A DNA stretch of 64,000 nucleotides. Source: Halorubrum hochsteinianum (lineage in GTDB: Archaea > Halobacteriota > Halobacteria > Halobacteriales > Haloferacaceae). The notes under the pieces are model-generated. The model worked only from the letters and a program-made list of their open reading frames with translations. It was not told where the DNA came from and made no database searches. Of this stretch, positions 2,982 through 43,890 are shown in pieces. The stretch covers positions 1,426,001 through 1,490,000 of the forward strand of contig NZ_CP098415.1 in the NCBI RefSeq assembly GCF_023702125.1. The letters are read 5' to 3'. How positions within the stretch are numbered: the first letter of the stretch is position 1; every line of letters starts with the position of its first letter. The translations under genes and the position numbers were made by a program.

Positions 2982-4154
2982 ATGACCGGAGCACGCGTCG
3001 GCTCGGCGCTCACCGACGAACAGGCGGCGGTCCGCGACCTCGTCCGCGAGTTCGCGGCCGAGGAGGTCCGGCCGACGGCGGCCGAGGCGGACGAGACGGA
3101 GACGTTCCCCGAAGGGGTGTGGGACGGGCTGGCGGAGCTCGGCCTCACCGGGCTGACGACTCCCGAGGAGTACGGCGGGTTCGGCGCGGACGAGACGACC
3201 TACGCGGTCGTCAACGAGGAGCTGGCGCACGGGTCGCTCGCGGTCGCGACCGCCCTCTCCGTCCACTGCCTCGCGACCTCCTGTATCGCCGAGTTCGGGA
3301 CGGAAGCGCAGCGCGAGCGGTGGCTGCCGGAGATGGCCGAGTCCGGTCGCCCGGTCGGCATGTTCTGTCTCTCGGAGCCGCAGGCGGGGTCGAACCCCGC
3401 CCAGATGTCGACGACCGCGACGTACGACCCCGCGACCGACGAGTACGCGCTGAACGGCGAGAAGCAGTGGATCACGAACGGGAAACGCGGCGGGGTGGCG
3501 ATCGTCTTCGCGAAGGCGGTTGACGAGGACCGCGACCCCGACGACGGCGCGATCACGCAGTTCCTCGTCCCCGCCGACGCGGACGGGTTCGAGGTCGGCG
3601 GGAAGGAGGAGAAGCTCGGCCTCCGGGCGTCGGACACGACCGGGATCACCTTCGACGACTGCCGGGTCCCGGCCGAGAACCGGCTCACGGAGCCGGGCGG
3701 CGGGCTGTCGGCCGCGTTCCGGACGCTCACCGAGGGGCGGATCGGGATCGCTGCGCAGGCCGTCGGCGTCGCGCAGGCCGCGCTCGACGAGGCGAAATCG
3801 TACGCCGAGGAGCGCGAGCAGTTCGACCGGCCGATCGCGGACATCCAGACGATCCGCCACAAGATCGCGGAGATGGCGACGGACGTGTCGGCCGCGCGGC
3901 TGCTCGTCCGCGAGGCGTGTCGGCAGGCGGAGGCGGGCGAGGACTACCGCGTCGCCGCCTCGAAGGCGAAGTACCGCGCCAGCGAGGCCGCGATGTCGGT
4001 GACGAACGAGGCGGTCCAGATCCACGGCGGCTACGGCTACACGACCGAGTTCGACGTCGAGCGCCTCTACCGCGACGCGAAGATCACGGAGATCTACGAG
4101 GGGACGACCGAGATCCAGAAGACGATCGTCGCCCGCGGGGTGCTCGGCGAGTGA
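2982..4154 (+). CDS. acyl-CoA dehydrogenase
   Basis: This is a 390-residue FAD-dependent acyl-CoA dehydrogenase that introduces the alpha-beta double bond in acyl-CoA oxidation. The standard N-terminal helical, middle beta and C-terminal helical domains are all present. Visible signatures are CLSEPQAGSNP, KQWITNGKRGG and the C-terminal IYEGTTEIQ, whose Glu is the usual catalytic base in short/medium-chain enzymes. A TATA-like CTTTTTCC lies about 26 nt before the ATG. The stop overlaps the GTG start of the phosphatase that follows. Chain length cannot be told from sequence. Confidence 0.93.
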   Translation: MTGARVGSALTDEQAAVRDLVREFAAEEVRPTAAEADETETFPEGVWDGLAELGLTGLTTPEEYGGFGADETTYAVVNEELAHGSLAVATALSVHCLATSCIAEFGTEAQRERWLPEMAESGRPVGMFCLSEPQAGSNPAQMSTTATYDPATDEYALNGEKQWITNGKRGGVAIVFAKAVDEDRDPDDGAITQFLVPADADGFEVGGKEEKLGLRASDTTGITFDDCRVPAENRLTEPGGGLSAAFRTLTEGRIGIAAQAVGVAQAALDEAKSYAEEREQFDRPIADIQTIRHKIAEMATDVSAARLLVREACRQAEAGEDYRVAASKAKYRASEAAMSVTNEAVQIHGGYGYTTEFDVERLYRDAKITEIYEGTTEIQKTIVARGVLGE

Positions 4155-4735
4155 CCGACTCGGTCGGGGCCCGGCTCGCCGACTACGAGGCGGTCGTCTA
4201 CGACCTCGACGGGACGCTCGTCGAGCTCGCGGTCGACTGGGACGCCGTCGCGGAGGCGGCCCTCGACGTGTACGCGGAACACGCCCGCATCCCGCCGACG
4301 GAGGAGCTGTGGAAGCTGCTCGGCGCGGCCGACGAGTACGGCATCCGGGACGAGGTCGAGGAGGCGATCGCCGTCCACGAGCGGGCCGGGGCCCGCGACT
4401 CCGCGCGCCTCCCGCTCGGCGACCGGCTGCGGACGGTCACCGGCGACTCCGGCGGTCACCCCCCGGCGGGCGTCTGCTCGCTCAACTGCGAGGCGGCGTG
4501 TCGGGTCGCGGTCGAGACGCACGGGCTCGGCGACGCCCTGGTCTCTCGGGCGATCCTCGGCCGCGACTCCGTCGGGAGCCACAAGCCGGACCCGGAGTCG
4601 CTGCTCGCGTCGATAGACCGGCTCGGCGGGACCCCCGAGACCGCGCTGTTCGTCGGCGACTCGCGGCCCGACGCGGTCGCCGCCGAGCGCGGCGGCGTCG
4701 ACTTCGCGTGGGTCTCCGACCTGCTCGCCGAGTAG
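4151..4735 (+). CDS. HAD-superfamily hydrolase (phosphatase)
   Basis: This is a 194-residue haloacid dehalogenase-type phosphatase. Motif I is YDLDGTLV (nucleophile Asp and acid Asp), motif III is the Lys in SHKPDPESL, and motif IV is FVGDSRPD. The layout resembles phosphoglycolate phosphatase-type enzymes with a helical cap, but the substrate cannot be read from sequence. The GTG start overlaps the stop of the acyl-CoA dehydrogenase gene (GTGA), which implies coupled translation. An upstream in-frame extension exists but lies inside that gene. Confidence 0.88.
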   Translation: MTDSVGARLADYEAVVYDLDGTLVELAVDWDAVAEAALDVYAEHARIPPTEELWKLLGAADEYGIRDEVEEAIAVHERAGARDSARLPLGDRLRTVTGDSGGHPPAGVCSLNCEAACRVAVETHGLGDALVSRAILGRDSVGSHKPDPESLLASIDRLGGTPETALFVGDSRPDAVAAERGGVDFAWVSDLLAE

Positions 4736-4768
4736 CCCACACCGGAAGGGGGACGGGCGTCGGTCCGT

Positions 4769-5182
4769 TCAGTCGCCTTTCTCCGCTTCGGTCGGCGCGT
4801 CGCCCGGCGGAGCGTCCGCCGCCGGGTCGTCAGCGTCGCGGGCGTCGTCAAGTTCGTCGGCGGCGGCGGCGTCGCCGGTCTCGTCGCGGGCGTCGTCCTC
4901 GTCGGTGTCATCGGGCCCGTCGCCGTCGTCGCCGGACTCGCCGCCCCCATCGCCGGCCTCCGTCCGCCTCGCGTACAGCGCGACGGTCACCGCGGTGACG
5001 AACCAGATGGGCGCGCCGACGCGGACCGCGAACGCGGCGCGCGCGCCCCACGACTCCAGCGTCACGAGCGTCGACAGCACGGCCACGACGGGCGCGCCGA
5101 CGAGGATGGTGACGACGAACGTCGTCTGCATCACCCACGCGTAGTCGACTCCCTCGTACTCGGCCCGCTCGACTGGTTGCAC
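4769..5182 (-). CDS. small haloarchaeal membrane protein with acidic tail
   Basis: This conserved-looking protein has two membrane helices (TTFVVTILVGAPVVAVLSTL and ARAAFAVRVGAPIWFVTAVTVALYA), followed by a roughly 75-residue tail almost entirely of Asp, Glu, Gly and Ala. I recognise it as one of the haloarchaeal uncharacterised (DUF) membrane families, with no known function. The start is uncertain: a GTG at 5182 gives VQPVERAEYEG, and an ATG at 5209 adds nine Arg-rich residues. I prefer the GTG because the basic extension looks non-coding. It is divergent from panB. Confidence 0.7.
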   Translation of the reverse strand: MQPVERAEYEGVDYAWVMQTTFVVTILVGAPVVAVLSTLVTLESWGARAAFAVRVGAPIWFVTAVTVALYARRTEAGDGGGESGDDGDGPDDTDEDDARDETGDAAAADELDDARDADDPAADAPPGDAPTEAEKGD

Positions 5183-39894: not shown

Positions 39895-40278
39895 CAACCG
39901 CCAGCGACTGCTCCGTCTCCGCCACTCGCTCCGTCCACGCGTCACCTCACGGCTCCGAGTGTATCCGGATCCGGCTGTCGCCTCAATGGACTCGACGACC
40001 GCTCGACCGGTGACGGGAGAACTCCGGCTGACCGTTACCCGGTCCGCTGATGACACGCGGAGAGTTCGCGGCCGGTCTGTCGTCGACGTGACGCGCTGAC
40101 CGAGGTATCCCGACGCACCGACCCGACCGACGCGACACGCCGACGGGGTCGGTGCGGCATCCGTCTCTCTCCGCTCGGTCCGCGTCCCGGCGGCTTGTCG
40201 TGATTCATCGTTTCGAAAAAGGACGCCGAAGTCGCGTCGAGTGAGCGGACGCCGGCCGCACTCCGCCGTCAGCGCCGC
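39895..40278. other. intergenic region between secY and the tetrad-repeat gene
   Basis: No convincing gene is seen in these roughly 385 bp between two convergent 3' ends. The only clear structure is a perfect 11-bp inverted repeat, CGCACCGACCC (40114-40124) and GGGTCGGTGCG (40146-40156), with a 21-nt loop, which may act in transcription termination from either side. Confidence 0.6.
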
Positions 40279-41148
40279 CTACGACTCGTCGCGTCGGTCG
40301 CCGTCCCCGTCCGCTTCGGAGTCGTCCTCGTCGTCCGCGTTGACCTTCTCGTCCACGGTCTTCTCCACTGTTTCTTCGACCGTCTCGCCGACGGTCTCCT
40401 CGACGGTCTTCTCGACGGTTTCCTCGACCGCCTCCCCGACGGTTTCCTCGACGGTCTTCTCCACCGTTTCTTCGACCGTCTCGCCTACGGTCTCCTCGAC
40501 GGTTTCGCCGACCTTCTCCTCGACGGTTTCGCCGACCTTCTCCTCGACGGTCTTCTCGACGGTTTCCTCGACGGTCTTTTCAACCGTTTCGCCGACCTTC
40601 TCCTCGACCGTCTCTCCGACCTTCTCCTCGACGGTCTTCTCGACGGTCTCGCCGACCGTCTCTTCGACCTTCCCGCTCACCTCCTCGCTGACGGTGTCGC
40701 TGACGTCGTCGGCGACTCCGCTGACCTCCTTGTTGACGGTCTCGCCCACGCTCTTTTCGACCTCCTTGCTCACCGTCTCTTCGACCTTCTCGCCGACGGT
40801 CTCCTCGACGGTCTTCTCGACCTCCTTGCTCACCGTCTCGCCGACGGTCTTCTCGACTTCCTTGTTGACTGTCTCGCCGACGGTCTTCTCGACTTCCTTG
40901 TCGACGGTCTCGCCGACGCTCTCCTCGACCTGTTTGCCGACCTGGTCCGCGACCTCGCGGGTCATCCAGTCGGGGTCGAACCGCGCCATCTTCCAGACGA
41001 CGTGGATCACGTACGAGGCGAACACCCCGATCCCGAAGGCCATCGCCACGGTGTTCATCTGGGTCGTCGCGATGAGCACGATCGATACGGCGATCAGCGC
41101 CCCGTACGCGATGTCGGTTATCGCGTCCACTCGGGCCGGACTCACCAT
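40279..41148 (-). CDS. membrane-anchored V-x-x-x tetrad-repeat protein
   Basis: The family is not recognised. The 289 residues start with two membrane helices (about 12-30 and 33-52). From about residue 66 to 268 Val recurs every four residues in units such as VEET, VGET, VEKT, VEEK, VSKE and VNKE, about 50 units, with a single 3-residue stutter (VSG). A 20-residue acidic tail ends the protein. This gives a very long, highly charged helix with a Val stripe, probably a rod or oligomeric coiled coil projecting from the membrane. The DNA is a 12-bp minisatellite. The ATG at 41148 begins VSPARVDAITDIAYG. Confidence 0.85.
   Translation of the reverse strand: MVSPARVDAITDIAYGALIAVSIVLIATTQMNTVAMAFGIGVFASYVIHVVWKMARFDPDWMTREVADQVGKQVEESVGETVDKEVEKTVGETVNKEVEKTVGETVSKEVEKTVEETVGEKVEETVSKEVEKSVGETVNKEVSGVADDVSDTVSEEVSGKVEETVGETVEKTVEEKVGETVEEKVGETVEKTVEETVEKTVEEKVGETVEEKVGETVEETVGETVEETVEKTVEETVGEAVEETVEKTVEETVGETVEETVEKTVDEKVNADDEDDSEADGDGDRRDES
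40344..40953 (-). repeat. 12-bp coding minisatellite
   Basis: Degenerate 12-bp units of the type GTCGAGGAGACG encode the V-E-E-T tetrads. Synonymous variation (GAA/GAG, ACC/ACG/ACA) shows that the array is old and kept at protein level rather than freshly amplified. Confidence 0.85.
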
Positions 41149-41343
41149 CCTCGCCCCTCCGTCTCGCCGTCGGGCGCGTCGCGTCGCCGTCGCGTGGCGT
41201 CTCCGTTCATACGTCCGCATTCCGCGCCGGCGGCGTAAAAGCCTCCCATTGTCCTCGTCCCCGGTCGATCGGTTCCCGGTCGCCGGCGGCGGCCGCCCGT
41301 CTCGGAGCGCGGCCCTTTTAGCTCGGATGGCCGAACCGGAGGC

Positions 41344-42474
41344 ATGGACATCGAAGAGGGCGGGATCACCGTCTCCGTCCCGGAGGCCCGCGACGGTGCC
41401 AGCGAGGGCACCGGCGGCGGCGTCTTCTTCAACCCGACGCAGGAACTGAACCGCGACGTGACCGTCGCGACGCTGCGCGCCTACCGCGAGCGCGAGCCGC
41501 GGGCGGCCTCGTACCTCGACGCGATGGCGGCCTCGGGGGTTCGCGGCGTCCGGGCCGCCGCCGAGGGGTACGACATCACCTGCGCCGACGTCGACGCGGA
41601 CGCGGTCGACCTCGCCGCGGCGAACCTTGACGCCAACGGGCTGGACGGCGAGGCGGTCCACCGCGACGTCAACGCCCTGCTGTACGACGAGGGGCCGTTC
41701 GACGTCGTCGACCTGGACCCGTACGGCACGCCGATCCCCTTCGCGGACGCGGCGTTCGCGAACGGCCGCAACCTGATCTGCGTCACCGCCACGGACACCG
41801 CGCCGCTGTGCGGTGCCCACCTCCAAAGCGGGATCCGGAAGTACGGCGCGGTCCCGCGCAACACCGACTACCACCCGGAGATGGGGCTGCGGACGCTCGT
41901 CTCCGCGCTCGTCCGGACCGCGGCGCGCTACGACAAGGCGGCCCGACCGATCCTCTCGCACGTCTCCCGCCACTACGCGCGGACCTACCTCGAACTGGAG
42001 TCGGGTGCCCGCGCGGCCGACGACTGCCTCGAAGCGCTGGGCCACGTCGACGGCTGCGAGGACTGCCTGTGGCGGTCGCCGACCCGCGGTCGGATCGCCG
42101 ACCCGGTCGACGCCTGTCCGGAGTGCGGGAGCGACCGCGTCCTCACCGCCGGGCCGATCTGGCTCGGTCCCGTCGCGGACCCCGACTTCGCGCGCGCCGT
42201 CCGGCGCGAGGTGACCGACGACATGGGCGAGGCGAAGCGGGCGCGGAAGCTGCTCGGCACCGTCGCGCGCGAGATCGACACGCCGACCCACTACGACCAG
42301 CACCGCCTGTACAAGCAGTGGGGCGAGCCGGCCATCGGCATGGACGAGTTCGTCGAGCGCCTGCGCGCCGCCGGTCACGAGGCGAGCCGCGCGCACTACC
42401 GCGGGACGGCGGTCAAGAGCACCGCGTCGATCCCGGAGATGCGCGAGGCGGTCCTCGGAACGGACGCGGACTGA
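41344..42474 (+). CDS. trm1: tRNA (guanine-26 N2)-dimethyltransferase
   Basis: This is the 376-residue archaeal Trm1, which dimethylates G26 of tRNA using S-adenosylmethionine. [35 protein letters not shown] (SAM site), [11 protein letters not shown] (catalytic DPPY-like motif) and a zinc finger with CEDC and CPEC are visible, plus a C-terminal GTAVKSTA segment. The order of domains is standard and the gene intact. It is divergent from the tetrad-repeat gene. Confidence 0.95.
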
Positions 42475-42579
42475 CCGCCCGGCCGACCGTCGCGAGGACC
42501 CCGCGCCGCCGCGGACCGACCGGTCTCCGCCCCGCCCGCCACCCGCCCGCTTTTGTCGCGGTCGGTCGAAGGGCGGGGC

Positions 42580-43890
42580 GTGTCCCGACACTCGCGCACC
42601 GCGTTCGGCACGGTTCGGCGCGTCGCCGACCTCGCGATCGACCGACAGGTGACGTTCCTCGCGGCCGCGATCGCCTACTACGCGTTCGTCTCGCTCGTCC
42701 CCGCGCTCCTGTTGCTCGTCGTCGTCGCCACCGCCGTCTTCGGCGAGACCATCGCCGCGGAGCTGGTCGCGTCGACGGGCGAGTTCCTCACCCCGGCGGG
42801 CGAGGAGGCGGTCGTCGGGGCCGTCTCCTCGGCCGGCGGCCGGACCGGCGCGAGCCTGCTCGGACTCGGGGTGCTGCTGTGGTCGACCCTGAAGGTGTTC
42901 CGCGGACTCGACACGGCGTTCGTCTCCCTGTACGGCGGCGACGGGACCCCGGGGTTCCTCAAACAGGTCGCTGACGCCGCCTCGGTCGTCGTCGCGGTCG
43001 GCGTCGGCATCGGCGTGATGGTCGTCGTCGGCGCGTTCGTCGCGGCCGCGGACGCGGTCCCGCTGGTCGAGGCGGCGAGCGTCCTCGCGCTGCCGGCGTT
43101 CCTCGCCGTCGTCTTCCTCCCGATGTACTACCTCCTCCCGCAGCCGACCCTCTCCGTCCGCGAGGCGCTGCCGGGCGCGGCGTTCGCGGCGGTCTGCTGG
43201 ACGCTGCTTCAGGCCGGGTTTCAGGTGTACGCCGCGAGCGCCGCGCAGTATCAGGTGTACGGCGTCATCGGCGGGATCCTACTGCTAGTCACGTGGCTGT
43301 ACCTCGCGGCCATCGTCGTCGTGCTCGGCGGCGTGGTCAACGTGGTGCTCGCGGGGCGGGCGACCCCCGACGATCCCGGCGGAACCGGGCCCGCCGGTGC
43401 CGCCGGGAGCGCGGACGACGCCGCGGACCGGCAGTTACAACAGGACCGCGGCCGACCCACGGGTATGAACGGCGAGTCGGACGCCTCCGGGGACGACGAC
43501 GAACGGCCGCGCGGCGCGCCGGACGTCGCCGCCCTCGAAGCGGAGGTCCGAGAGCTGCGGTCGCAGCTCGACGAGTTCGAGGACGACGTGGAACGACGCA
43601 CGGTCGACAAACCCGAAGTCGAGTCGGAACTGAAGCGGTACGTCCGGTCCCGAATGCGCCGCGGACACGCCCGGGGCTGGGGTCCGTACCTCGTCCTGCT
43701 GTACGGCACGGTGCTGACGCTCGCGGCGCTGACGTCGCTGCAGGGGATCTACGCGGTCGGTGCCATCGTCGTCCTCGGGCTGTCGACGCTCGGCCTGTAC
43801 ACGATATTCGTCGTCGTCGGAATCGGGTTGAACCTGCTCGAAACGCCGGGCAAGGCGCTCGATTACGCCCGCGGCCGCGGCGATGACTGA
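42580..43890 (+). CDS. YihY/BrkB-family membrane protein with C-terminal extension
   Basis: The first 285 residues form a six-helix YihY (BrkB) protein; LAAAIAYYAFVSLVPALLLL and LLQAGFQVYAASAAQYQVYG are typical. After residue 290 come an acidic linker with a short coiled coil (VAALEAEVRELRSQLDEFED) and two further helices. This C-terminal part has its own Met (43465) and could be a fused second protein. The GTG at 42580 is chosen because a CTTTTGT TATA element lies about 28 nt upstream. The function is unknown. Confidence 0.82.
   Translation: MSRHSRTAFGTVRRVADLAIDRQVTFLAAAIAYYAFVSLVPALLLLVVVATAVFGETIAAELVASTGEFLTPAGEEAVVGAVSSAGGRTGASLLGLGVLLWSTLKVFRGLDTAFVSLYGGDGTPGFLKQVADAASVVVAVGVGIGVMVVVGAFVAAADAVPLVEAASVLALPAFLAVVFLPMYYLLPQPTLSVREALPGAAFAAVCWTLLQAGFQVYAASAAQYQVYGVIGGILLLVTWLYLAAIVVVLGGVVNVVLAGRATPDDPGGTGPAGAAGSADDAADRQLQQDRGRPTGMNGESDASGDDDERPRGAPDVAALEAEVRELRSQLDEFEDDVERRTVDKPEVESELKRYVRSRMRRGHARGWGPYLVLLYGTVLTLAALTSLQGIYAVGAIVVLGLSTLGLYTIFVVVGIGLNLLETPGKALDYARGRGDD

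Follow-up and report, generated by a model that had tools for sequence, protein, structure and literature searches.

A membrane-anchored protein whose tail carries valine at nearly every fourth residue is encoded in the window, the whole 64,000-nucleotide stretch of Halorubrum hochsteinianum DNA that was analysed. Judged from its gene neighbourhood, this tetrad protein is probably (about 0.6) a membrane-anchored helical rod that serves a PiT-family (PHO4) inorganic phosphate transporter as an accessory or regulatory partner. The gene linkage that points to a PiT accessory protein was found in 43 of 50 loci outside Halorubrum, though not in the window's own genome, and such a neighbourhood is evidence of association, not of binding.

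The gene starts with an ATG codon at 41148, and its stop codon ends at 40279; this start was backed by the orthologues, which begin with M-x-N/S-P. The interval 40279-41148 given in the preliminary description was right, and the gene lies on the minus strand (Table 1). Both N-terminal membrane helices were supported by AlphaFold2 at a pLDDT of about 70-86. Because an R precedes the first helix and K and R follow the second, the positive-inside rule suggests that the tail sits in the cytoplasm with both ends of the protein inside, which speaks against the earlier idea of an envelope rod. Two long overlapping frames, one of 402 aa on the plus strand opposite the gene (40241-41449) and a 770-aa same-frame upstream extension through trm1 (40279-42591, minus strand), were rejected as apparent artefacts of GC-rich or periodic DNA, and a plus-strand self-match was rejected as an antisense or open-frame artefact of GC-rich DNA.

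Table 1. Coordinates of the tetrad gene and its features in the window, with one example of the second tetrad family.
Feature	Position	Strand	Extent	Basis
Whole gene (two-TM anchor, tetrad-repeat tail, acidic C-terminus)	41148..40279	minus	289 aa + stop	
First membrane helix	41065..41139	minus	residues ~4-28	AlphaFold2 helix H3-27 (numbering from residue 2), pLDDT 75-84
Second membrane helix	40981..41052	minus	residues ~33-56	AlphaFold2 helix H32-55
Signature HxxWKMARFDPDWMT, membrane-cytoplasm junction	40960..41004	minus	residues 49-63	invariant alignment columns
Array of 51 Val tetrads (V-E/G-E/K-T)	40342..40953	minus	residues 66-269	sequence
Lone 3-residue stutter (VSG)	40717..40725	minus	residues 142-144	sequence; AlphaFold2 helix break just after
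Acidic C-terminal tail beyond the repeat	40282..40341	minus	residues 270-289	sequence
Second family example	L181:1261-1824	minus		

The family was searched with the anchor, defined as the first 82 residues of the window protein. Within the GTDB family of the window's genome, 125 of 170 genomes had an anchor orthologue; a search of named genomes gave 80 loci, mostly from Halorubrum, Natrialbaceae and other haloarchaea. An anchor profile matched 270 of 391 genomes of the haloarchaeal class, in 69 of 86 genera; in a sample of the phylum, all of the matches listed fell inside the same order. The junction signature was invariant in both alignments, A1 with 57 sequences and A2 with 23, with slight variation in a few further orthologues (FDPNW in L036). 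Searches of Pfam and NCBIfam gave no model for the protein or its anchor, and searches of PDB sequences gave no structure for either, the matches to the tail being of low complexity. DUF445 (PF04286) scored 32.6 bits over residues 65-207, below its curated cut-off of 33.8; this weak profile likeness was confined to the low-complexity tail, and the anchor was without a match. Literature searches on four-residue coiled-coil repeats or on the tetrad protein returned nothing.

The PiT neighbours of the 43 linked loci, counted within the flanks covered at each locus, were confirmed as PF01384. PiT genes flanked the tetrad gene on both sides in 24 loci of Natrialbaceae type, and 12 loci from other genera had a co-directional PiT gene downstream, the remainder being divergent only (4) or convergent only (3); loci within a family share ancestry and hence do not represent 43 independent events. 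The stop and start codons overlapped as TGATG in 10 of the 12 co-directional tetrad-PiT pairs. Because most of the genomes have 2-6 PiT genes, chance adjacency was roughly estimated at less than 1% per locus. In Halorubrum, the tetrad gene lies between secY and trm1, divergent from trm1, with no adjoining PiT gene; this neighbourhood was dropped as the main functional clue because it is conserved in Halorubrum only. The window's genome has three PiT genes, the nearest about 366 kb from the tetrad gene, and among them an orthologue of the partner PiT has been kept (66% identical, about 366 kb away).

PiT was present in 390 of the 391 haloarchaeal genomes versus 270 for the tetrad protein; PiT can therefore work without the tetrad protein, and joint presence and absence was rejected as evidence, since with a near-universal PiT it is uninformative. 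Some genera, g9 and g19 among them, kept PiT while the tetrad protein was missing from most or all of their sampled members. Because whole or nearly whole sampled genera show this pattern, the tetrad protein was probably lost several times.

The array contains 52 valines separated by 51 gaps, fifty of 4 residues and one of 3, in agreement with the preliminary description, which had reported Val at every fourth residue with one 3-residue stutter after two membrane helices. The other positions of the tetrad are filled by E, G or S (b), E or K (c), and T, K or E (d). V-V pairs at distance 4 numbered 50, against 12.3 +/- 2.7 (maximum 23) in composition-preserving shuffles, and the longest run of 4-gaps was 31, against 5 at most (mean 1.5) in 5,000 shuffles. 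A heptad coiled coil alternates spacings of 3 and 4 to give 3.5 residues per turn, and the window protein, with 50 of its 51 gaps equal to 4, did not follow this pattern.

Over 74 orthologues, the 2,731 V-V gaps were distributed as 4 (2,560), 3 (104), 8 (35), 9 (13), 7 (11), and 5 (1). The genus representatives (roughly one per genus) gave 1,526 gaps, distributed as 4 (1,431), 3 (42), 8 (25), 7 (13), and 5 (0). Homologues with a heptad or a lost period had been named in advance as what would speak against the repeat; the period held in 93.7% of the gaps of the 74 orthologues and 93.8% of those of the genus representatives, and the four-residue period is genuine and conserved, and it is no heptad. 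The uninterrupted Val run ranged from about 4 to 59 Val across orthologues. Natrialbaceae arrays often insert regular 3s (VEDVQTQV; e.g., L063, L070, L073, and L094), with a mean period of 3.75-3.83, and were counted under the same spacing grammar. A C-terminal segment, VDERVDRRPREDEVEE, was conserved in these four and similar Natrialbaceae loci and absent in Halorubrum.

In the 8-gaps of the 74 orthologues, the residue at the missing Val was M (16), I (10), L (4), A (2), T (2), or D (1). Val codons other than GTC (GTG, GTT, or GTA) accounted for 508 of 2,560 and differed solely at the third base. Because a lost Val is mostly replaced by M, I or L and the Val codons diverge at the third base, selection to keep every fourth position hydrophobic is well supported.

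Imperfect DNA tandem repeats of 24, 36, 48, 60, and 84 bp were present in the array; all of these periods are multiples of 12, so the array grew by slippage or unequal exchange of whole tetrads, and its length varies in four-residue steps. The relative L004 has an 82-residue N-terminus identical to that of the window protein, yet 42 repeat Val versus 52, and this difference of about ten tetrads despite an identical anchor is a sign of fast array turnover. The tandem repeats and the unequal lengths of near-identical relatives would also fit a period without structural meaning, left behind by slippage of 12-bp repeats in GC-rich DNA, and a disordered, charged tail. We consider this very unlikely, as slippage accounts for the spread of copies, not for a Val that is kept while filler and synonymous codons diverge, and it leaves the M/I/L replacement, the near absence of 5-gaps and the recurrence of the same period in a second family unexplained. 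A pure DNA-slippage account was largely refuted by the substitution pattern.

That second tetrad family (loci L180-L194) was traced from a weak second match, L163. In that search, its related two-helix anchor was about 25-40% identical to the main family; the junction reads WEKMSIYER. The tail has V, I, L or M, or Ala, at each fourth residue with other filler (EEQV, ADEV), and the gaps were 4 (273), 8 (30), 3 (11), and 5 (0). PiT genes adjoined 8 of 15 loci of this family. AlphaFold2 modelled TM2 and the tail as one continuous 148-residue helix, with a pLDDT of about 66-87 except at the ends. A Pfam scan of one member gave no match above the curated cut-off. Reading the T-V repeat as glycophorin-like small-xxx-small was rejected as not general, the second family being without such a repeat.

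An alpha-helix, with 3.6 residues per turn, permits hydrophobic spacers of 3 or 4 residues and hardly of 5. The tetrad arrays followed this 3-or-4 grammar, paired charges at i,i+4 and were modelled as helical by AlphaFold2. Opposite charges at i,i+4 were enriched (z +10 in genus representatives, z +12 in all sequences) and like charges depleted (z -17 and z -24, respectively) relative to shuffles that kept the tetrads intact and changed their order alone; shared ancestry inflates these z values, and their direction is what counts. The tail of the window protein was modelled as helical at low confidence (pLDDT about 41-64), with a break just past the stutter. Since the period is kept, lost Val is replaced by M, I or L, charges pair at i,i+4 and the second family is alike, the sequences and models together make it well supported that the tail is a selected helical array, a helical rod.

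Val, Thr and Gly are poor helix formers, and the abundance of all three in the window protein tail counts against the helical reading. The high Val and Thr content, together with the low confidence of AlphaFold2 on the window protein, would suit a real period on a non-helical fold, beta or extended. Such a fold is extremely unlikely given the 3-or-4 spacing, the i,i+4 charge pairing and a lack of strands in either AlphaFold2 model.

A stripe of period four on an alpha-helix winds right-handed, as had been proposed from the start. The accessible periodicity of coiled coils was reported as about 3.33-3.9, with 3.8 as the most extreme example and 4.0 listed outside the range (PMC4786415). The mean Val period of the window protein, 203/51 = 3.98, lies outside the span of accessible right-handed coiled coils (11/3 to 19/5, about 3.63-3.9), and several orthologues were pure 4.0. 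In our own geometric calculation with a 3.63-residue helix, the 4.0 period could not be fitted at the radii of a dimer, trimer or tetramer; the sole solution was a very close, GxxxG-like dimer of 3.3 A radius, whose helices cross at about 44 degrees with a pitch of about 50-51 A. When the helix was under-wound to 3.68-3.72 in the same type of calculation, an ordinary dimer opened at large pitch angles. Because a strict 4.0 exceeds the accessible range of PMC4786415, either the helices behave unexpectedly or the Val stripe is no continuous interface.

Tetrabrachion hendecads (11/3), pentadecads (15/4) and the local 19/5 of YadA likewise have a spacing above 3.63 per turn, implying right-handed winding, and some Natrialbaceae tetrad proteins come near them at 3.75-3.83. 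Unlike these known right-handed coiled coils, the tetrad family keeps strictly to 4.0 across stretches that reach about 220 residues. The hendecad families of Martinez-Goikoetxea and Lupas 2023, including MACH, are also non-canonical helical arrays that sequence-based predictors miss, and as they are outlined in PMC11676326, they are set apart by description through a period of 11 versus 4. A tail forming a continuous two-stranded right-handed rope with a true 4.0 interface, and serving a phosphate transporter as its regulatory rod, is unlikely; it would repeat the close right-handed crossing of GxxxG membrane-helix pairs about 50 times at a periodicity held to be inaccessible. Since 4.0 is kept in most genera of haloarchaea and by two families, the limit of about 3.9, or an alternative use of the spiral stripe, can be tested directly on short, easily made peptides.

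The tail could also be mainly a single alpha-helix, stiffened by Val-Val staples and Glu-Lys pairs at i,i+4 and spanning from the membrane to the acidic C-terminus as a spacer with no oligomerisation domain. Such a reading bears on tail structure only and is compatible with a PiT partnership. The charge pattern agrees with it, a period of 4 maximises i,i+4 contacts, and large changes of array length are tolerated (10 to 59 Val). Val is a poor choice for such a helix, single-helix domains are usually without a strict hydrophobic stripe, and the M, I or L substitutions hint that the stripe packs on another surface; we regard the single helix as possible at a low probability.

A former of structural rods or bundles, cytoskeleton-like or organising the membrane, would make the PiT operon link a matter of co-expression only and use the Val stripe for homo-oligomeric bundling. 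The long regular array, its variable length as in rod proteins and the helical predictions are in keeping with such a role, as is the conservation of the array in Halorubrum independent of PiT adjacency. It is nevertheless rather unlikely, as both tetrad families are PiT-linked in several different gene arrangements and a strict 4.0 on a 3.63-residue helix fits no standard oligomer geometry.

Under the preferred PiT partnership, TM2 would continue as a long alpha-helix inside the cytoplasm, and the invariant WKMARFDPDWMT junction would dock on the transporter. The tail may sense or limit Pi import, or cluster transporters, with the Val stripe as a putative surface for self-association or for a cytoplasmic partner, and i,i+4 salt bridges may stiffen the helix in molar KCl. 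Candidate packings of the 4.0 stripe are a tight right-handed pair, a stiff single helix and short local contacts.

A bacterial precedent is the PhoU-like pitR encoded with pitA, according to the account of this gene pair in PMC13170248. PitR (DUF47/PhoU-like) is there also encoded beside PiT as a candidate regulator of Pi import; the tetrad protein, with two membrane helices and a tetrad tail, is unrelated to it in sequence, and Pfam and NCBIfam scans of the tetrad protein or its anchor gave no PhoU/DUF47 match. SCO1846, a small unexplained membrane protein adjoining pitA in actinobacteria, is like the tetrad protein small, uncharacterised and not PhoU-like, as described in the passages on it in PMC13170248. 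The two are likened by description, and those passages mention no tetrad tail for SCO1846. No regulator of haloarchaeal PiT was described in the literature searched. The tetrad protein may belong to an unrecognised class of haloarchaeal PiT partners.

At the Natrialbaceae-type locus L067, the PiT genes lie around the tetrad gene at 1452-2633 and 3660-4823 (minus strand), and the two Natrialbaceae PiTs are about 45% identical. The Natrialbaceae PiT pair is often followed by an apparent SLC13/TrkA-C-type transporter, with a ferredoxin-like gene nearby.
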